A stretch of 48,914 bases of DNA, from positions 1 through 48,914 of IMG/VR virus record IMGVR_UViG_3300037202_000023; one strand, written 5' to 3'. Within the stretch, counting starts at the first letter, position 1, and the number at the start of each line of letters is the position of its first letter. Origin of the DNA: a virus. The position numbers and the translations under genes were made by a program. Positions 3,217 through 19,044 of the stretch are shown piece after piece. The notes under the pieces are model-generated. The model saw nothing but the letters and a program-made list of their open reading frames with translations. It did no database searches and was not told the origin of the DNA.

Positions 3217-3691
3217 GGACTACCTCTACGCGGGCGCAATTGCGGTGCTGTTGATCGCGTTCGGCCTCTTCATAAGGCACGAGCGCAGCGTCGGCGCAGC
3301 GAAGGTCGTGGCCGCGGACCAGAAGGCCGTCGCGGCCCAGGTCGAGCGCAACGCGGCTGTCCAGACCATCGCGAACGTCGCTACTCAACTCGCTCAGGTG
3401 AAATATGAAAACGCGATTGCTGCTCCTATTGCTCACGTTGCCCCTGTCAACTGCTTGCGTCACATCCCACGCAGTAGTGGCCCCCTGCCCGGCACCCCCA
3501 GTGGTGCAGTCAGTGGAGACAACGCCACCATCATCGGAAGCGCAAATCCGAGCAGCGCTCCTGCCGTATCAGGACCAGACCTTGCCACAGCCTTAGTCAC
3601 CATAGGTCGCGATGACGACGCTAAGATCAAAGCATTGCAGGACATTATCGCCGGCTTGCGCGCGGAAATGGAGAAATCAAATGTCAAGTGA
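3197..3691 (+). CDS. i-spanin, Rz-like inner-membrane spanin subunit
   Basis: A 164-residue protein with one N-terminal membrane anchor (about residues 8-27, LYAGAIAVLLIAFGLFI) and a periplasmic part. The first periplasmic portion (28-75) is a charged Ala/Gln/Val coiled-coil-like helix, typical of Rz proteins. Spanins fuse inner and outer membranes in the last step of Gram-negative host lysis. A lipoprotein gene sits wholly inside it in the +2 frame (3405-3596), the classic embedded Rz/Rz1 arrangement. The stretch that overlaps the nested gene is Pro/Ser/Thr-rich with little structure, as expected for dual-coded DNA. The C-terminal 25 residues return to a helical pattern. Confidence 0.82.
   Translation: MPAIPLKDYLYAGAIAVLLIAFGLFIRHERSVGAAKVVAADQKAVAAQVERNAAVQTIANVATQLAQVKYENAIAAPIAHVAPVNCLRHIPRSSGPLPGTPSGAVSGDNATIIGSANPSSAPAVSGPDLATALVTIGRDDDAKIKALQDIIAGLRAEMEKSNVK
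3405..3596 (+). CDS. o-spanin, Rz1-like outer-membrane lipoprotein, nested in the i-spanin gene
   Basis: A 63-residue protein with Lys/Arg at the start, a poly-Leu core and the lipobox LSTAC, so Cys18 would be lipidated. The mature part is short and Pro-rich (APCPAPPVV), as in Rz1 proteins. It is coded entirely inside the i-spanin gene in another frame. Known o-spanins pair through their C-terminus with the i-spanin to bridge the periplasm. Lipobox, size, proline content and nesting all agree, so confidence is high. Confidence 0.87.
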   Translation: MKTRLLLLLLTLPLSTACVTSHAVVAPCPAPPVVQSVETTPPSSEAQIRAALLPYQDQTLPQP

Positions 3692-3971
3692 GCCTTTCAC
3701 CGCGCAAGACGCGAATAACCTCATTCAGATCGCCCGGTCCGCCCCGCTGCAGAACATGGCCGCGGCCGAAGCGGTAAACGCGCTGCTCACGAAGTTCGCC
3801 GCGTTCGCGAACGAGTGGTTCTCGCCGCCCAAGCCGGCCGCGCCGATTGGGCCGCCTGACCCGATCGTTGACCCGCTGGTGCCGACGCGCCTCGGGATGA
3901 TTAAGGCCGGTATCCAGGTTAACCCGCCAGCGACCGACGAAGAACTGTTTGAGCTTGGAAGAACGCGATGA
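3681..3971 (+). CDS. Hypothetical protein (96 aa) in lysis cassette
   Basis: ATG 3681 overlaps the end of the i-spanin gene by 11 bases, and the stop overlaps the next start (ATGA). Residues 1-50 look helical (QDANNLIQIARSAPLQNMAAAEAVN), then comes a Pro-rich linker and a short C-terminal segment (TDEELFELGRTR). No membrane segment or catalytic motif is visible. The location between spanins and a holin-like gene suggests a late role, but the function is unknown. Confidence 0.65.
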   Translation: MSSEPFTAQDANNLIQIARSAPLQNMAAAEAVNALLTKFAAFANEWFSPPKPAAPIGPPDPIVDPLVPTRLGMIKAGIQVNPPATDEELFELGRTR

Positions 3972-4468
3972 CCGATCTCAGCTCAGCGGCCAATATGGCG
4001 ATAATCGCCGGGGCAGTGGTGTCGTCATTCGGCACCCTGCTCGCTGGCGTTGCCGCGGTGGGCGGCTGGCGCTCGTCGCTGAGAAACGGCCGTGCCGTGG
4101 ACCAAGCGAACGCGCAAGGCGCGAAAACCGCCGAGAAGATTCAAGAGATCCACGTGCAGACTAATAACATGAAGGACCAACTCGTTGCTGCGGTAGGTAT
4201 CAACGCGCGGAAGTCGGGCATCGAGCACGAGCAGCAGATGCAGATCGCGAGAGAGATGCAGACCTCCCTCCTGGTGGCAGCGTTGGCGGACCCCAAGGCT
4301 ACAGCGGCGGAGAAATCGGACGCGGCGGCACTCGCCAGTAGGCCGGTAGCTGTCGCAACAGAAGCCACGGCGACCGTGGCGGGAGCACCGGCCCCGGTTC
4401 CGGTCACTATCGTGGCGCACACGCCGGTCCCCGTGACGCAGACACCGGCAACGGATGCCTCGCTATGA
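3968..4468 (+). CDS. Membrane protein with coiled coil, holin-like candidate (166 aa)
   Basis: One N-terminal hydrophobic helix (about residues 8-32, AIIAGAVVSSFGTLLAGVAAVGGW) is followed by a long Gln/Glu/Lys-rich helical region (40-110) and an Ala/Pro/Val/Thr-rich low-complexity tail. A single TM plus long soluble helix could be a class III-type holin or an antiholin-like regulator. It overlaps the lysozyme gene by four bases (ATGATG/TGA), so the two are translationally coupled, which favours a lysis role. No firm family match. Confidence 0.6.
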   Translation: MTDLSSAANMAIIAGAVVSSFGTLLAGVAAVGGWRSSLRNGRAVDQANAQGAKTAEKIQEIHVQTNNMKDQLVAAVGINARKSGIEHEQQMQIAREMQTSLLVAALADPKATAAEKSDAAALASRPVAVATEATATVAGAPAPVPVTIVAHTPVPVTQTPATDASL

Positions 4469-4899
4469 TGCTCGGTCTAGCCGGCCGCAAGCTGATACAG
4501 AGCTACGAGAAGTGCTGCCTGACGGCGTACCAGGACGAACGCGGAATCTGGACGATCGGATGGGGACACACGGGCAAGGACGTGTACCAGGGGCTCGTCT
4601 GGACGCAGGCGCAGGCCGACTCCTACTTCCTCATTGATACAAGCATGGCGCAGTGCATCGTCAACAAGACTATTCACTGCGCAGTGAATCAGAACCAGTT
4701 CGACGCGATGGTGTCCCTGGCATTTAACATAGGCGAGACGGCGTTCGGATGCTCAACGCTCGGGCGCATGGTAAATGGCGGCGACTTAGTGGGCGCCGCG
4801 ATGCAATTCCCCCTTTGGGACCACGCTGGCGGCCACGTGAGCGAAGGGCTCGAGACTCGGCGCGAGGCAGAAGCGGCCCTTTTCAAGACCCCGGTTTGA
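4465..4899 (+). CDS. Endolysin, GH24 (T4-lysozyme family) muramidase
   Basis: A 144-residue single-domain lysozyme. The T4-type catalytic triad has the expected spacing: E15, D24 and T30 in SYEKCCLTAYQDERGIWTIGWGHT, and the GWGHT signature follows. The later FDAMVSLAFNIG segment is also typical of GH24. The family cleaves the beta-1,4 bond between MurNAc and GlcNAc in peptidoglycan. There is no signal peptide or signal-anchor, so release would depend on a holin. Five Cys residues is high for a phage lysozyme and may mean disulphides once in the periplasm. Length is normal for the family. Confidence 0.93.
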   Translation: MMLGLAGRKLIQSYEKCCLTAYQDERGIWTIGWGHTGKDVYQGLVWTQAQADSYFLIDTSMAQCIVNKTIHCAVNQNQFDAMVSLAFNIGETAFGCSTLGRMVNGGDLVGAAMQFPLWDHAGGHVSEGLETRREAEAALFKTPV

Positions 4900-6547: not shown

Positions 6548-7761
6548 TTCTGCACACTAGCCCAAGGGCTAATAGCCTTGGCGCTTCCCTTCTCGCAATT
6601 CACCGGCATGCGGAACGTGATGCCATGTCTAGGGTGATTCAGCCACAAAGCTTGCTGCGGTTCCTCAAAGCTGAAGTTGTTGGTGTACGCGTATTCGTCG
6701 TATCCCTTGAGCGAGCCGTTGACAATCAGCGTACGGGTGTGGATGTACTGGTGCCAATGGCCCACGATCATCGTGTCGTAGCCCATGCCGATTTGCTGGT
6801 TTCGCGAGCGCTTTTTCTGGTTGCCGCGTGTAAGTGGGCCGAGGGCGCCGATTATGGAGTCGCCGCCGCGGAACTGGTCGCCGTGAGACAGAAGAAATTT
6901 GTAGTCCCATACACGATATAGGGCATCAGAACCGTCAGGAATGTAAAAGGTAACATGTTTATCTCCCTCGAAATGCTTCGCCAGGAACTTGTAGATAAGC
7001 CAGTCGAACGACGTGTGGTGCCGGTCCTTGTTCCAAATCTTGCGCGTGTCGCGCCCGTGGTTGCCAGTGACGCACGGGATGAACACCGAGCCGAAGGTGT
7101 CGCGCAGTGTGTTGATCGCGGCTATCAGCTCGCCGTACACTTCGAGCACCACGGGCATCGAATTCAACTCATTCGTTGCGGTCAGCTCGTCATGGATGTT
7201 GCCAGATATGATGTCGCCGCCGAGCGGGACCACGATGCCGGGGTAGTCCATTTGCGGACTGATGATCCTGCACAGATGGACTGCAGTGTCGATCGTGTAG
7301 CGCAGGCGCGTGCGAGCGATTGCCATGTTGAACTTGTTCACACCCCCGATCTGCGCAGGAAACACGCGCTCACCCCAGTGGAAGTCGCTCAGCATGAGTG
7401 TGGGGACGCCGGGCGATGACGCTTTGGCGAGTGCCGCTTGGGTCCATTTCGGTGGCTCCACGTCCTCGACTTCATCGCGCAGCGCACCGATCGCTTCCTT
7501 GACTGCCTCAACTTCAGTGCTGGTCTGCTGCGACTTTTTAAGCTCTGTCTGCAGTTCCTTGATCTTGCCCTTCAGGATGCGCGGGTGATCGGGCCCCATG
7601 CCGTTCGGCACGAGTCCGAGCGCCTTGGCGTTGCGCATGCGGCTACGGAAGGTCTCGAGGTTTAGGTGGAGAGCTGCCGCCGCGGCGACAACGGAGCCGT
7701 GAGTCTGCACCGCGTCAACAAGCGATTGCAGCTCGGCCTTGGAGATCATCTGTGCAGCCAT
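6544..7761 (-). CDS. Calcineurin-like metallophosphoesterase with N-terminal HTH and coiled coil
   Basis: 405 residues. ATG 7761 is preferred: GAGGTG lies just upstream, while longer versions read Arg/Gly-rich noise. Residues 8-50 resemble a helix-turn-helix (VVAAAAALHLNLETFRSRM), 60-100 a coiled coil, and 120-340 the metallophosphoesterase core. All metal motifs are present: D126-F-H128, G182-G-D in LGGDIISG, GNH at 233-235, H293 and GHWH at 334-337. The family hydrolyses phosphomonoesters or diesters, including nucleic acid. Similar HTH-MPE proteins are common in phages with DUF2800/2815 replication modules; the DNA-binding front end suggests a nucleic-acid substrate. It overlaps the Ntn gene by four bases. 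Confidence 0.88.
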   Translation of the reverse strand: MAAQMISKAELQSLVDAVQTHGSVVAAAAALHLNLETFRSRMRNAKALGLVPNGMGPDHPRILKGKIKELQTELKKSQQTSTEVEAVKEAIGALRDEVEDVEPPKWTQAALAKASSPGVPTLMLSDFHWGERVFPAQIGGVNKFNMAIARTRLRYTIDTAVHLCRIISPQMDYPGIVVPLGGDIISGNIHDELTATNELNSMPVVLEVYGELIAAINTLRDTFGSVFIPCVTGNHGRDTRKIWNKDRHHTSFDWLIYKFLAKHFEGDKHVTFYIPDGSDALYRVWDYKFLLSHGDQFRGGDSIIGALGPLTRGNQKKRSRNQQIGMGYDTMIVGHWHQYIHTRTLIVNGSLKGYDEYAYTNNFSFEEPQQALWLNHPRHGITFRMPVNCEKGSAKAISPWASVQK

Positions 7762-10957: not shown

Positions 10958-13029
10958 TTCCGATACCTATAGCCCATAATCCCTTTTGCGGTCATGGGCA
11001 GCCCTTCAGCCCAAAAGGAACTGGTGCACATGATCTCGCTAAGGCGCTCGGGGGTGAACTCTGCCGAGTCCGGGGGCTCGCATAGCAGTTCATCGTGCAC
11101 AGTCAATATAGGATTATACCCTTCATCCGCCGCTGCCATGAGACCATCAAACAAAATATCTGTGGCACTTGCCTGTACGATGTTCTCCGCGAGCTTTCCA
11201 GAGTACGTGCTGATGCGGTGCCACTGCCGGGTGTAGGGATTTATCCCGATAAAGCTCAGCTCGCGGTCATCCTGATGGACAGCCGGGTAGCACAGATACC
11301 GGCCGCTCGGCAAACGGATACGGACCCACGATCCGCGCCGATCTACGGTGACGCGTCCAACATTTATCGCACAGTCTGGTGAGCGGATAACTGCGAATAC
11401 CGCGTTCTCCAGGGCGTACCAAAATTTCACAATGGCAGGATGCGCAGCACGCCACAGTAGGACCAGACTCTGACAGACTATCCATGTGCGTTGCTCCAAT
11501 CCGTAGATGCGGTTGCGCTTCACCGCTTTGTGCCACGCCTCGGTGGCTTGCGCCTTGACATCGTACGGCAGCGTTGACCATGCCGCGGCGGCCATCGCGT
11601 CGAGGTTCAAGTGGTACGTGTCGGCCAGCGAGCAATATGCGCCGACGCCGCCGTAATACTGCAGCGCCAGCTCTTGCACCTTGCCGCATTGCCTCCACTG
11701 CGCAACCGCGTCATCCCAGTCGAACCAATCGAGATCCTTGCCGAAGGACCGCGCGATGCTGGACTTGTACAAGTCCGGGCCGACGCCCATGTCGTAATCG
11801 CGGAACGCCTCTAGTTTCCACTCTTCGCCTGCAAGCCACGCCATTTTTCGTGACTCAATACCTGCAAGATCTGCCCACAATAGCTTACGCCCCGAAGGTG
11901 CCACAATGAGCCCCCGTAGGCTTGACGCCGCCAGCCCCATCGTTTCTGCCGGATTGAAAATATCGCCAGCGCCAATCCGCGTAAGGGCGATGAAAGTGTC
12001 AATGTCGTGTTGCTCGTGCTTAGGACGCGGCAGATTGTGGGGCTGAAAAACGCGTCCGGCCCAACGACCCGTACGTGCTGCCCCACAGAAAAGTAGTAGG
12101 CCGCGAAGTCTACCTTCAATTTGCATGTTGCCGACGCGGGCGTACTTCGCTGTAGACGCTTTGCTCGCCTGCTGACGGATGCGGAGTAATTCTTTGATGC
12201 CTTCAGGCAAGCTCTCGTCCTCAAGCCTTCGTTCCACAGTATCAGCGGTAAGATCAGGCAGTGTAACGCCGTACGCAGCGCAGTAAGCGATAAGTCGATT
12301 GCGTTGAGTAGTCGATTCCACGCTCGAATGTTCCAGAATTTCATCGTATGTCAGCTCCTTCGTTCGTTCAGCAAGCGCGCGTTTAGCGGCGTCCGTGAGC
12401 GCCACGGCCTCGGCTGCGAACTGAGTGTCGAACGCGACGCCGCGGTCGTTCATCCTCTGGTCAAGCGCCCACAGCGACCACATGCGCGGCGTGCTGTTCC
12501 ACTTCGGCAACTTGTAATACACCGCGCGCATCGACGTGATATCGGACCCGCCGTACTTTAGGAACTCGAGCCACTCGAGCGGGTGAGACTTCCAATCATT
12601 GTACGTGCCGTCGTCCTTGGGGACGCAGAATAACATTATTAAGGGCTTGCCGGCTGCGTCCTTGGCCTCTTCCATCGGGACCTTAAGAATGTGGCAGAGC
12701 TTGTCCAATCCGCCAGGAAGACCATGAAATCGCGCTAGCGCAGCCGTGCACCGATACTTTTCAATCGGAAACGCGGGCCACCACGTTGTCGTTTTCATCA
12801 ATAATGTTCGGTCGAATTCCGCGACATGGAACCAAAGCTCATCCGCGGCCTGCGCAGCGGCTACAAACTCGTGCGGCACGCCGTCAGCCATATCCCATAC
12901 CTTTACAGGGCCATCGTCCACGCACCATTGAACTGTCATTACCGCGGCGTCGGGCGCCGAAGCATATTTGTACACCCCGCGTTTTAGCGGGGTGCTCGAG
13001 CGGGTTTCGGTATCAGCGAATAGCCGCAC
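10954..13029 (-). CDS. Family A DNA polymerase with 3'-5' exonuclease domain
   Basis: 691 residues; start GTG 13029. The exonuclease domain has FADTETRS (D6, E8), FHVAEFDRTLL (D73) and YGGSDI (D163). The polymerase domain has conserved RTGRWAGRVFQPHNLPRP (319-336), motif A ADLAGIESR (D387), motif B K450...YYGGVGAY and motif C VHDE (D646). Both catalytic Asp residues are present, so it should be active in synthesis and proofreading. It lacks a 5' nuclease domain, like T7 polymerase, and is the replicase by context (helicase, SSB, primase-helicase nearby). The preceding HNH gene overlaps its start by 17 bases. Confidence 0.95.
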   Translation of the reverse strand: MRLFADTETRSSTPLKRGVYKYASAPDAAVMTVQWCVDDGPVKVWDMADGVPHEFVAAAQAADELWFHVAEFDRTLLMKTTTWWPAFPIEKYRCTAALARFHGLPGGLDKLCHILKVPMEEAKDAAGKPLIMLFCVPKDDGTYNDWKSHPLEWLEFLKYGGSDITSMRAVYYKLPKWNSTPRMWSLWALDQRMNDRGVAFDTQFAAEAVALTDAAKRALAERTKELTYDEILEHSSVESTTQRNRLIAYCAAYGVTLPDLTADTVERRLEDESLPEGIKELLRIRQQASKASTAKYARVGNMQIEGRLRGLLLFCGAARTGRWAGRVFQPHNLPRPKHEQHDIDTFIALTRIGAGDIFNPAETMGLAASSLRGLIVAPSGRKLLWADLAGIESRKMAWLAGEEWKLEAFRDYDMGVGPDLYKSSIARSFGKDLDWFDWDDAVAQWRQCGKVQELALQYYGGVGAYCSLADTYHLNLDAMAAAAWSTLPYDVKAQATEAWHKAVKRNRIYGLEQRTWIVCQSLVLLWRAAHPAIVKFWYALENAVFAVIRSPDCAINVGRVTVDRRGSWVRIRLPSGRYLCYPAVHQDDRELSFIGINPYTRQWHRISTYSGKLAENIVQASATDILFDGLMAAADEGYNPILTVHDELLCEPPDSAEFTPERLSEIMCTSSFWAEGLPMTAKGIMGYRYRK

Positions 13030-16316: not shown

Positions 16317-16741
16317 GTTGACCTCCGAAGGTACGCTATTGCACATTCCAAACCGAGAATATCATCGCCAAGTTTTCCGATTGCAGTGTTGCACGCTACA
16401 CAGAGCCACCCACGAAACGCGTTGTTTTCATGGTCGTGGTCTAGGCACTTTGCGGGGCGTCCACAACCAGGTCGTTCGCATATTTCCGGCATGGGCCATA
16501 ACGGCTCGGGAAGCCCCGCCCATCTGCGCGCTATCGCCGCGCGCTTTTCTGGGTTCGCTTTGTTCCATTTGCGAGCGTTTGCGTTTACCTTATCAGCGTT
16601 AACCGCGTACCATTTCGCGTTGTATGCGCGCGCTTTCTCCGGGTCCGCAAGGCGCCGTGCGCGAGATTGCGCGTTTAGCTTCTCGCGATTTGCGGCGCCC
16701 CACGCGCTGCGATAGGCCGCTTTTTGCGCTGGCGTTTTCAT
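16313..16741 (-). CDS. Recombination endonuclease VII-like nuclease
   Basis: 142 residues from ATG 16741. C-terminal part ICERPGCGRPAKCLDHDHE ... FRGWLCVACNTAIGKLGDD matches T4 endonuclease VII: CxxxxC and CxxC zinc ligands, catalytic DHDH and the N of CNTAIG. The family resolves branched DNA such as Holliday junctions, though free-standing homing versions exist. The first 75 residues hold three copies of a basic ANPEKxxAYNxxW-type motif, the same module as in neighbouring nucleases. The start codon overlaps the stop of a 25-codon ORF (ATGA). Confidence 0.87.
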   Translation of the reverse strand: MKTPAQKAAYRSAWGAANREKLNAQSRARRLADPEKARAYNAKWYAVNADKVNANARKWNKANPEKRAAIARRWAGLPEPLWPMPEICERPGCGRPAKCLDHDHENNAFRGWLCVACNTAIGKLGDDILGLECAIAYLRRST

Positions 16742-16815
16742 CCGCGTATCGCTGCGCGCTTGTGGCGCTGCGCGGCGCGCTTGAGCTTCGAGCCCGGAGG
16801 GACGACTGATGTCAC
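16738..16815 (-). CDS. 25-codon basic ORF coupled to endonuclease VII (tentative)
   Basis: GTG 16815 overlaps the stop of the upstream membrane peptide (GTGA) and the stop overlaps the endonuclease VII start (ATGA). It codes GSKLKRAAQRHKR, almost the same as the C-terminus of the 77-residue protein at 18469-18702 (GSKLKRAALRHKR). The DNA of this stretch (16757-16796) matches 18488-18527 at 36 of 40 bases. It may be a leftover of a duplicated gene end rather than a functional gene. Confidence 0.4.
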   Translation of the reverse strand: MTSVVPPGSKLKRAAQRHKRAAIRG

Positions 16816-16928
16816 GCCACAATCCTCGCGTACGCGTAGGCCCATGCGCTGCAGGCTGCGACCGTAACGGCGACCAGCGGCCAGCGCATGAAGACGTTGA
16901 TGACGAAGGAATTCAGGGGGGTGTACAT
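16812..16928 (-). CDS. 39-residue membrane peptide of the surface-polysaccharide module
   Basis: ATG 16928 lies one base after the stop of the secreted protein gene, with AGGGGAAG upstream. It reads MYTPLNSFVINVFMRWPLVA and continues as a hydrophobic Ala/Val-rich helix ending AYARIVA. A single membrane segment is likely. Close coupling to the secreted protein and glycosyltransferase suggests an accessory subunit, but no family is known to me. Confidence 0.5.
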   Translation of the reverse strand: MYTPLNSFVINVFMRWPLVAVTVAACSAWAYAYARIVA

Positions 16929-16929
16929 G

Positions 16930-17409
16930 TTACTTCCCCTTGAGGTTCCAGCCGAACCAGTAGCTGACGTACGCTTGCACGCCGAAACCGTTCATGCTGC
17001 CATCGGACGCGGGGACATCGAGGGTGCCGTTCCAGCCAGCGCCCCAATGGTGCTCGTCCACGCCCTCAATGCCGAGGGTGATGATACCGTCGCTGAAGTG
17101 GCGATCTAGGCGCGCGCCGAATGCGGCTTGCACCTTGTCGTTGTATGTCAGGTGGTTCATGTCATCGCCGAACCGGACGCTGCCGTACGTGTCGAACGTG
17201 AGCGTGTTGCCGGCGAACCGGAACCAATCGATACCCTGCGTGAGACTGGCCGCGTACAGCACGTTGTTGGACTCGGGCGACAGCTTGAGCACGCTGCTTG
17301 GGCCGGTGATCGACGCGTAGGACGATCCGGGGTATGCGATCGGGCCGTCGTAGGCGATGGCCGTGGATGCGGCTAACGTGGCGACGATGGCAAGCACAAT
17401 TTTCTTCAT
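16930..17409 (-). CDS. Secreted protein, probable outer-membrane beta-barrel-like partner of the glycosyltransferase
   Basis: 159 residues from ATG 17409 (strong AAGGAG). Residues 1-19 are a Sec signal peptide (MKKIVLAIVATLAASTAIA, cleavage before YDG). The mature part alternates polar and hydrophobic residues in beta-strand fashion (SLTQGIDWFRFAGNTLTFDTYG, ITLGIEGVDEHHWGAGWNG) and ends VSYWFGWNLKGK. This looks like a small barrel or the C-terminal barrel region of NfrA-type export proteins; that likeness is my impression, not a search result. It lies 10 bases downstream of the glycosyltransferase gene, so both are made together and could form a synthesis-plus-export pair. Confidence 0.6.
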   Translation of the reverse strand: MKKIVLAIVATLAASTAIAYDGPIAYPGSSYASITGPSSVLKLSPESNNVLYAASLTQGIDWFRFAGNTLTFDTYGSVRFGDDMNHLTYNDKVQAAFGARLDRHFSDGIITLGIEGVDEHHWGAGWNGTLDVPASDGSMNGFGVQAYVSYWFGWNLKGK

Positions 17410-17419
17410 AGGGATCTCC

Positions 17420-18478
17420 TTAAGTTTGGTCAAACGCGTAACGCTCACACTTGTTCCATGCCAGGATTTTCTTGCGGCACAGAATGATCTCGATAAACCC
17501 CCGCAGGAACGCGTAGAGATTTACGAACGAAATCCAATAGAAAAACGGCAGCTTGTACATTACGTCCCAACGCTTAGTCTTGAGCGCGACCAGCGCGCCG
17601 ACGCTCAGGTACACCGCGGCGTCAATCGCGAGCCCGAACCCCGATATCTTCGGGGGGAAAACGCGCAACAGCAGGATCAGCGTGGATATACGATTCAGCA
17701 GCAGAACGTCCAGCACTAAGTACATCATGTACCAGTCAACCGGGCGCTTGCGCGTGAACCCAAATGTCTTGTGCTTGAGGATGATCTGCCAGAACCCCCG
17801 GTTCCATCGCATGTTCTGCTTCATGTAGTCGCCGAACGTCGCGGGATCCTGCGTGATGACGCCGGCCCCGTGCACGTATTTGATCTTGCCCTTCATTCGG
17901 TGAACCTGGATGGTCAGGTCCATGTCCTCGGCGAGCGTGCCCGCGTCGATAGTCAGCTTCGCCAGCTCGGACAGCTTGTACATTGACGCGCAGCCGGGCG
18001 AGACTGTAATCACGTTGAAATTGTTCTGACCGCCCTTGATTACTTCGTGCGAGAACGTGTACTCATACGCTCGCAGCGCGGAGTACACATGGTTGTTCTT
18101 TGCCGACTTAACCTGCCCGATCAGCAGCGCCGCGTCGGGGTTCTGCTCGGCAGCCTCGAACATCACATTGAGAAATTGCGACTCGACCTTAGAGTCCGCG
18201 TCAATGAATACGACATGCGTGTACCTATTCTGCAATTGGAAGTGCGCGAGTCCGTGGTTCTGCGCGTTGGCCTTGCAGCCGCCCTTCTCGGGGACCATGT
18301 ACACGTTCACCAGTTTGTCGAGCGCAAGACGCGCGGTGCGGTCAGTGGACATGTCATCCACGACGTAGATATCGCGCGGGTCGAAGCCGGCATCGCAGAG
18401 CGAATCTATCGTGCCCTCGATTACGCGTTCTTCGTTGAACGCCGGGAGCAGCACGCAGATTTTAGGTTCTAACCCCAC
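17420..18478 (-). CDS. Processive family 2 glycosyltransferase (polysaccharide synthase-like)
   Basis: 352 residues from GTG 18478. All motifs of processive GT2 enzymes are present: PAFNEE near residue 12, DD at 41-42 in VVDDMSTD, DAD at 93-95, the catalytic ED at 184-185 in TLAEDMDL, and Q221-N-M-R-W225 (QxxRW). The C-terminal third has about three membrane helices (250-272, 280-300, 309-333). This plan is shared by hyaluronan, chitin-oligosaccharide, poly-GlcNAc and NfrB-type synthases, which polymerise sugars and push the chain through the membrane. The substrate cannot be read. There is no N-terminal TM and no PilZ domain. A gene like this could change the coat of the infected cell. Confidence 0.87.
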   Translation of the reverse strand: MGLEPKICVLLPAFNEERVIEGTIDSLCDAGFDPRDIYVVDDMSTDRTARLALDKLVNVYMVPEKGGCKANAQNHGLAHFQLQNRYTHVVFIDADSKVESQFLNVMFEAAEQNPDAALLIGQVKSAKNNHVYSALRAYEYTFSHEVIKGGQNNFNVITVSPGCASMYKLSELAKLTIDAGTLAEDMDLTIQVHRMKGKIKYVHGAGVITQDPATFGDYMKQNMRWNRGFWQIILKHKTFGFTRKRPVDWYMMYLVLDVLLLNRISTLILLLRVFPPKISGFGLAIDAAVYLSVGALVALKTKRWDVMYKLPFFYWISFVNLYAFLRGFIEIILCRKKILAWNKCERYAFDQT

Positions 18479-18702
18479 GTCACGTGTCGCTTGTGGCGCA
18501 GTGCAGCTCGCTTGAGCTTCGAGCCCGCGGGCCTGATCGGGCCGCCCATGCGGGTGCCGAGCCGGCGCTTGCGCTCGCGTGTCCCCCGCCGCATCTTCGC
18601 GAGCACGGCGATGTAGAACAATTGCAGTAGGTGCACGCGCGTGCCGAAAAAGGGGGCTGGCCGCGGCCGCCAGCCGAACCCATCAGCGTCGATTTTGTAC
18701 AC
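18469..18702 (-). CDS. Hypothetical basic protein (77 aa)
   Basis: Starts at GTG 18702 directly after the previous stop and overlaps the glycosyltransferase start by ten bases. Very basic: RRGTRERKRRLGTRMGG and GSKLKRAALRHKR. It has a short hydrophobic stretch (VHLLQLFYIAVLAKM) that could insert in a membrane. The C-terminal motif is duplicated at 16757-16796. Function unknown; nucleic-acid or membrane binding possible. Confidence 0.55.
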   Translation of the reverse strand: MYKIDADGFGWRPRPAPFFGTRVHLLQLFYIAVLAKMRRGTRERKRRLGTRMGGPIRPAGSKLKRAALRHKRHVTWG

Positions 18703-19044
18703 TTATGCCAGCTCGAGGATTGCGGCGGCTTTGTCGTGGACGGCCTGAACGTCAGCAGGCTTGACTTCCGAAATGGCCTTCGCGCCATGATCGGCAAGCA
18801 GCTTGACGGCATCGGCTCGCTTGTTAGCCTGAATGAGCGCGACAATCTTTTCGGCCATTTCCTTGTGGGTAACAGCGGCGGCTTCGGCGGGTGCCTCGGC
18901 CTGGGCAGGGGCGGCAGCGGCAGGCTTGGCAGCCGGCTTCACAGCCTTGGCGGGCGCAGCGGCGGCGGCGGGTGCCGCGGCTGGCGTCTTGGCGCCGCCC
19001 TCTAGGGCAACGGCAATACGCTCAAGAATTGACTCAATTGACAT
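18703..19044 (-). CDS. Ala/Pro-linker protein with small C-terminal helical domain (113 aa)
   Basis: Residues 1-16 form a short helix (MSIESILERIAVALEG), 17-55 a low-complexity Ala/Pro/Lys linker, and 58-113 a compact helical domain (MAEKIVALIQANKRADAVKLLADHGAKAISEVKPADV). Similar C-terminal domains occur in small phage proteins near replication genes. It could be a scaffold or DNA-replication accessory protein. It lies between primase-helicase and the surface-polysaccharide module. Confidence 0.7.
   Translation of the reverse strand: MSIESILERIAVALEGGAKTPAAAPAAAAAPAKAVKPAAKPAAAAPAQAEAPAEAAAVTHKEMAEKIVALIQANKRADAVKLLADHGAKAISEVKPADVQAVHDKAAAILELA

Follow-up and report, generated by a model that had tools for sequence, protein, structure and literature searches.

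A Recurrent Phage Gene Trio as the Probable Core of an Exopolysaccharide System Acting on the Infected Cell

Three adjacent phage genes, coding for a GT2 polysaccharide synthase of the processive type, an exported beta-rich protein (BETA) and a short peptide with a single transmembrane (TM) helix (MRxP), were analyzed in the window, that is, the whole 48,914-nucleotide stretch of viral DNA under study, and were found again in other phages. We consider it rather probable that these phages carry a synthase-dependent exopolysaccharide (EPS) system which coats the infected cell with glycan and has the trio as its core. Since about 20 unrelated phages contain the trio, frequently alongside other polysaccharide enzymes, such phages probably direct the cell they infect to form a sugar coat. 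A polysaccharide-synthesis module had already been proposed in a preliminary description of this DNA, and the grouping of the GT2 with processive enzymes, the coupling of the trio and the deacetylase, GH16 and acyltransferase genes in the operons of relatives all agree with that proposal. Sequence comparison supports the processive type of the GT2, the export signal of BETA, the conserved coupling, the deacetylase and glycanase partners and the near-restriction to phages; the identity of the sugar, the export route, the roles of BETA and the peptide and the biological benefit are what we infer.

Genomic Context of the Trio

The window record corresponds to a tailed phage, with genes for a terminase, a major head protein, a helicase, a primase, endonuclease VII and an endolysin, and a match to an Rz-like spanin. 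Its DNA polymerase is BPP-1-like (44.6%), and no tRNA genes were found in the record. A Gram-negative host is likely because of this gene set, including the endolysin and the Rz-like spanin match. The trio was located on the minus strand amid replication genes (polymerase, helicase, primase, and exonuclease) and opposite the structural genes, a position that fits the early operon assumed previously.

A 40-nt direct repeat, absent from the preliminary description, brackets the trio almost exactly. The right copy (18488..18527), directly upstream of the GT2 start, is 90% identical to the left copy (16757..16796), which lies between the genes for the MRxP peptide and endonuclease VII. The 19-nt core of the repeat is present twice in the window, where 0.03 occurrences would be expected by chance, and no further copies were detected there. 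Each copy is contained in a candidate ORF for a basic peptide on the minus strand, recognized by reading and aligning the sequence. The ORF with the right copy (18469..18594) would encode 41 aa (..PAGSKLKRAALRHKRHVTWG), and its 3' end overlaps the GT2 start; the one with the left copy (16738..16815) would encode 25 aa (MTSVVPPGSKLKRAAQRHKRAAIRG) and shows stop-start overlaps with the MRxP peptide and endonuclease VII genes. Both peptides end alike (PGSKLKRAAxRHKR), and this common tail, together with the repeat, suggests that the cassette may have been inserted by duplication.

A terminator-like hairpin followed by a T-run (18655..18675, minus strand), which separates the module from the upstream gene (18703-19044), is suggestive only; the counts of promoters and terminators in the module region were not above those of shuffled sequences. 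When the three closest copies of the module were compared, pN/pS was 0.16–0.24 for the GT2, 0.25–0.43 for BETA and 0.33–0.52 for the peptide. Hence, purifying selection acts on all three genes, a result to be read with caution as dS approaches saturation.

The GT2 as a Predicted Processive Synthase

The GT2 gene (17420..18478, minus strand) starts with GTG and encodes 352 aa, which were assigned to a HAS/PgaC-type processive polysaccharide synthase by Pfam and NCBIfam, invariant motifs, AlphaFold (AF2) and Foldseek. The Pfam matches were PF13641 (3.8e-21) and PF00535 (4.2e-19). The motifs D41, D92xD94, E183-D184-x-D186 and Q220xxR223-W224 showed no variation among 16 aligned relatives, and the catalytic set of the HAS/PgaC/NodC/BcsA processive group (D, DxD, (T/A)EDxD, and QxxRW) is complete. 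The AlphaFold model (pLDDT 88, pTM 0.87) runs from a GT-A domain through an interface helix with QxxRW to about three C-terminal TM helices, without N-terminal ones. This combination of GT-A domain, interface helix and TM channel helices is that of processive synthases (AF2 and Foldseek), so the earlier claim of a QxxRW processive GT2 with three C-terminal membrane helices was borne out by the motifs and the model.

The best eight Foldseek matches of the model were all chlorella-virus HAS (E 1e-14 to 1e-13, TM 0.71–0.77), to which the GT2 is 16% identical; the closest of them reached E 1e-14 with TM 0.75–0.77. An HMM built from 16 relatives ranked HAS first in the PDB, followed by chondroitin and cellulose synthases. 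The alignment with PgaC covered 248 columns and extended through QxxRW (E 9e-23), whereas that with GtrB was limited to 99 columns. The kinship of the enzyme, on which the preliminary description had made its proposal depend, is thus with the processive synthases HAS, PgaC and NodC and not with GtrB. The nearest NCBIfam families were PgaC/IcaA, an XrtG-associated GT2 and NodC, all scored far under their equivalog cut-offs. The 422-bit cut-off of the PgaC/IcaA equivalog TIGR03937 was reached neither by the GT2 (82.9 bits) nor by its relatives (about 103 bits), which counts against EPS synthesis. In the tree, the module GT2s fell into one cluster whose deep support was weak; the window GT2 shared a fully supported clade with those of L002 and L003, and long branches led to E. 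coli PgaC, BcsA and NfrB. A close relationship to NfrB, envisaged earlier, did not hold, as the hhalign probability was marginal (7.7).

Because NCBIfam, the PDB profile search, AlphaFold/Foldseek, the alignments and the tree coincide, the GT2 is, as judged from sequence and model, a processive-type synthase by every test run, and one outside any named equivalog. Just one GT2 was present in 14 of the 15 records checked, so it does not belong to a large glycosylation cluster. Named phages gave only partial GT2 matches (about 23–31%).

BETA and the MRxP Peptide

The BETA gene (16930..17409, minus strand) starts 10 nt past the GT2 stop and encodes 159 aa including the signal peptide MKKIVLAIVATLAASTAIA. 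It was defined from its sequence, its conserved family (A4) and its AF2 model, and corresponds to no known family. The model is a meander of six long strands, most of them with alternating hydrophobic faces; hence, the signal peptide, the model and the gap agree with the secreted beta-rich protein reported ten bases from the GT2. No family was matched in a Pfam scan of 17 BETA members, no relative was retrieved with the BETA profile among PDB sequences, and no BETA was found in the named phages searched. The fold search in the PDB and BFVD gave no significant match, the weak ones being barrel-like (best E 0.04 and 0.014). The resemblance to an NfrA-like barrel end, proposed earlier by eye, was discarded (hhalign probability 0.1), and a PgaA barrel was likewise rejected, as BETA has no relation to PgaA. 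BETA might be an outer-membrane or oligomeric export component; its placement in the outer membrane is a guess, since it derives from six predicted strands with no significant fold match.

The gene for the MRxP peptide (16812..16928, minus strand) starts 1 nt past the BETA stop. The coupled membrane peptide described earlier was therefore confirmed, although its length is 38 residues instead of 39. In its family (A5), the N, R and P of the motif N...MR[FWY]P, directly ahead of the TM helix, are constant. Many relatives carry a proline-rich tail C-terminal to the helix, which would be periplasmic according to the positive-inside rule. Like BETA, the MRxP peptide matched no Pfam family. The peptide trails BETA in 19 of the 20 viral groups (the exception being L024) and in a contig of the candidate phyla radiation (CPR). 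A paralogous second TM peptide with the motif CMRWPALIPV was observed behind the first in L002 (1869-2063) and L003 (about 11660-11779); the L003 copies have LRWP (first) and MRWP (second).

Recurrence in Viruses and Distribution in Cellular Genomes

Alignment-based scans of IMG/VR with the GT2 and BETA as queries yielded 20 distinct contig groups, one of them that of the window. These range from 15 to 358 kb and have unrelated backbones, and both GT2 and BETA were present in every one of them. The order of the trio was constant and its spacing tight across about 20 viral groups, the coupling in relatives that the preliminary description had called for. When BETA alone was used for searching, a GT2 was adjacent at every locus with upstream DNA available, and BETA also followed the GT2 in the held-out loci L033, L036, L037, and L065, kept outside profile building. 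Such a recurrence of the same order in unrelated phages is more than chance.

The window and the sequenced stretches of L002 and L003 have the trio alone in common, plus a 24% terminase match in L003, which indicates that the module moves between unrelated phages. The terminase query gave matches in 3 of 12 records. The module begins right after tRNA genes in L002, L003, and L021.

Furthermore, one genome per species was scanned for 84,980 cellular species with strict peptide patterns, whose strictness could let diverged cellular homologues escape. Three relatives were obtained, and just one of them had BETA and the peptide, a Candidatus Adlerbacteria (CPR) MAG of roughly 900 kb. This sole cellular copy found (L033, 7992-10550) has the order GT2-BETA-MRWP peptide-deacetylase and looks chromosomal, because it is set between YvcK-like and EF-G genes, both identified by reading the sequence. 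No BETA was found in 379 other Patescibacteria genomes. According to the general view, CPR bacteria have no outer membrane; since a CPR genome is the only cellular one in which BETA was found, the case for an outer-membrane role of this protein is weakened.

Fuller Operons and Neighboring Genes in Relatives

Several relatives carry additional genes beside the trio. Among the 20 groups, a YkuD-like protein was found in 11, a PF01522 deacetylase in eight, a GH16 enzyme in seven and an acyltransferase in two. Deacetylase and GH16 occurred together in seven groups, two of them with the acyltransferase as well; in L005 and L016, the deacetylase and a PF01757 acyltransferase sit between the GT2 and BETA. 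The L016 deacetylase had PgaB as its best NCBIfam match (3.6e-29) and matched IcaB too, and the best match of the L016 GH16 was ExoK (6.2e-21). The catalytic motifs were kept in both enzymes (DD...HxxxH and EIDIE, respectively). Two results count against an EPS system. First, the trio stands alone in the window phage as well as in its two nearest relatives, where no deacetylase, YkuD or GH16 was detected; second, an exporter with a PgaA/BcsC-like TPR barrel was not found. The host of the window phage may provide the modifying enzymes; alternatively, the polymer may serve without modification.

The YkuD-like protein conserves H...TxGCxN, and its profile retrieved no relative among PDB sequences. 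It is a less specific partner, since it is present in many phages without the trio. These small L,D-transpeptidase-like proteins form a phage family that is common in large phages independently of the trio (L079, L083-L086, L089-L098, L101, L102).

Regarding precursor supply, a nucleotide-sugar dehydrogenase is encoded by the 358-kb phage, the one case above cut-off in 15 viral records; no UDP-GlcNAc 2-epimerase was found in the viral records, and the SIS domain, used as a proxy for GFAT, gave one match above cut-off, in a 336-kb record. In L018 (2523-3299), a gene for a putative porin of the TorF family (PF09694) lies directly upstream of the GT2 and is a possible export partner. Additionally, three secreted proteins are encoded in the same order beside the operons of L009 (1300-3008) and L014 (11190-13081). 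Two of them are low-complexity and Gly/Ser/Asn-rich, matrix- or amyloid-like by eye, and the L009 copies matched no Pfam family. The two fullest operons, those of L005 (3509-3982) and L016 (4121-4288), are accompanied by paired tRNAs whose anticodon is CUA; they were called as Pyl and might be amber suppressors.

Discussion

The chlorovirus hyaluronan and chitin synthases are, like the phage GT2, virus-encoded processive GT2 enzymes and early ones (for the phage, by gene location), and HAS is the nearest solved structure. Similar to PBCV-1, one operon-bearing phage encodes a UDP-glucose-dehydrogenase-like enzyme (PMC5408694). However, the phage enzyme, besides its 16% identity, has no N-terminal TM helices and is encoded next to BETA and the MRxP peptide in one operon, and its carrier is a bacterial phage, whereas chloroviruses infect algae. 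In these algae, infected cells become covered with hyaluronan fibers and the attachment of other viruses is reduced, although a fitness benefit of this coat is still to be demonstrated (PMC5408694).

The Pga/Hms and Ica (PNAG) systems share with the module a PgaC/IcaA-type GT2, a small TM partner gene and, in relatives, a PgaB/IcaB-type deacetylase; the acyltransferase of L005 and L016 is of the acyltransferase-3 family, as is IcaC. The differences are that the module is phage-borne, scores far under the equivalog cut-offs and has no PgaA-type TPR-barrel exporter, BETA being unrelated to PgaA, and that the relatives carry the deacetylase domain alone instead of a two-domain PgaB, with GH16 replacing the PgaB hydrolase domain. 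NfrA-NfrB, which makes the NGR glycan and is the receptor of phage N4, also pairs a GT2 with an outer-membrane-type partner in Gram-negatives (PMC8669469, PMC8669472), but BETA shows no sequence relation to the NfrA C-terminus and the phage GT2 has no c-di-GMP domain. The operon GH16 resembles ExoK (succinoglycan-type) and other GH16 enzymes in its catalytic EIDIE strand, although it is missing in the window phage. Prophage GtrAB O-antigen conversion likewise relies on a phage membrane GT2 that changes the cell surface; nevertheless, GtrB aligned with the first 99 columns only and does not have the QxxRW part, neither GtrA nor GtrC adjoins the phage GT2, and the neighbors differ. The module would work like Pga/Ica or chlorovirus HAS, but falls outside PgaC, the Pga exporter and NfrAB by the tests that define them.

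Other functions have to be weighed. The GT2 could make an inner-membrane glycolipid or a short oligosaccharide, displayed by BETA and the peptide so that the host envelope or the phage receptor is altered. The enzyme is short and has no N-terminal TM helices, Q/RxxRW is known also from some glycolipid glycosyltransferases, which counts against EPS synthesis, and the hopanoid glycosyltransferase HpnI appears low in the NCBIfam list of one relative; since the best matches are HAS, PgaC and NodC and the operon partners (PgaB/IcaB-type deacetylase and ExoK-type GH16 endo-glycanase) act on polymers, we regard this as improbable. Slightly less probable still is a remodeling of the cell wall, in which the L,D-transpeptidase-like protein, the deacetylase and the GT2 would modify murein in order to postpone lysis or keep other phages from injecting. 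NodB-type deacetylases do act on peptidoglycan too, and the YkuD-like protein with H...TxGCxN adjoins the trio in 11 viral groups. However, this gene is found in many trio-less phages and the window phage does not have it; the deacetylase resembles PgaB/IcaB more closely than peptidoglycan deacetylases, and murein is not a substrate of GH16 enzymes.

That the trio is a chance assemblage or a decaying remnant of host DNA, functionless in the phage, is very hard to maintain: the window copy is indeed a reduced version bracketed by a direct repeat, yet all three genes show purifying selection (with dS near saturation), their order is kept across unrelated phages, and the trio is nearly absent among the 84,980 cellular species. 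Equally remote is a glycosylation of phage DNA or virion proteins, which many phage glycosyltransferases carry out according to work cited in PMC12619734; the membrane-bound processive architecture, the exported partner, the TM peptide and the extracytoplasmic deacetylase argue against it, and no base-modification genes were noted nearby.

The best reading is therefore an early phage cassette that would make an N-acetylated beta-glycan and export it over the infected cell; its polymer, export route and benefit are what we infer. A synthase-dependent exopolysaccharide pathway is favored by the combination of synthase, TM partner, exported beta protein, N-deacetylase, endo-glycanase and acyltransferase, an N-acetylated sugar by the deacetylase in the operons, and a coat on the infected cell by the early location and the chlorovirus precedent (PMC5408694). 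Early in infection, the GT2 in the inner membrane would use a nucleotide sugar to build a beta-linked chain, which it would also extrude; the most likely substrate is UDP-GlcNAc, by itself or combined with a second sugar. The MRxP peptide could be a small membrane subunit, modeled on the PgaD/IcaD-type partners, which either supplies the helix missing from the N-terminally short GT2 or tethers the GT2 to BETA, and BETA would take the chain across the periplasm or the outer membrane. In the fuller operons, the PgaB/IcaB-type deacetylase, the optional acyltransferase and the ExoK-type GH16 glycanase would trim and modify the chain. The resulting sugar coat would most plausibly block the adsorption of competing phages or hold infected cells together, in parallel with what hyaluronan fibers may do on chlorovirus-infected algae.

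To our knowledge, virus-directed extracellular polysaccharide has been demonstrated for chloroviruses only. In a literature search confined to open-access papers and a minority of preprints, neither a phage exopolysaccharide operon nor a description of the BETA and MRxP families was found. We give about even weight to the view that the trio is a phage-specific EPS machine in which two new families (BETA and MRxP) form a minimal export path, and that it has spread horizontally as a cassette and produces a phage-specified glycan coat. If true, phages of many genome sizes would reprogram the infected cell to make extracellular polysaccharide; superinfection could then be excluded, or cells aggregated, in a new way, and the trio would possibly be a minimal trans-envelope glycan exporter. 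Viral CE4, GH16 and GT2 genes, listed singly in a survey as polysaccharide-degrading auxiliary genes, would then be reinterpreted, provided that they belong to such operons (PMC6460857).

Two further records with polysaccharide genes were observed. A bacterial pgaBCD operon beside paaF was found in CAKLQH020000010.1 (L113), labeled as Acinetobacter phage MD-2021a and probably mislabeled bacterial DNA; some of the records bearing that name proved to be bacterial pga operons. In the actinophage Microbacterium phage Merry (L116), a PgaC-like GT2 (3591-4634) and an annotated UDP-glucose dehydrogenase (6779-7450) lie about 2 kb apart and possibly constitute an independent viral uronate-polysaccharide system.
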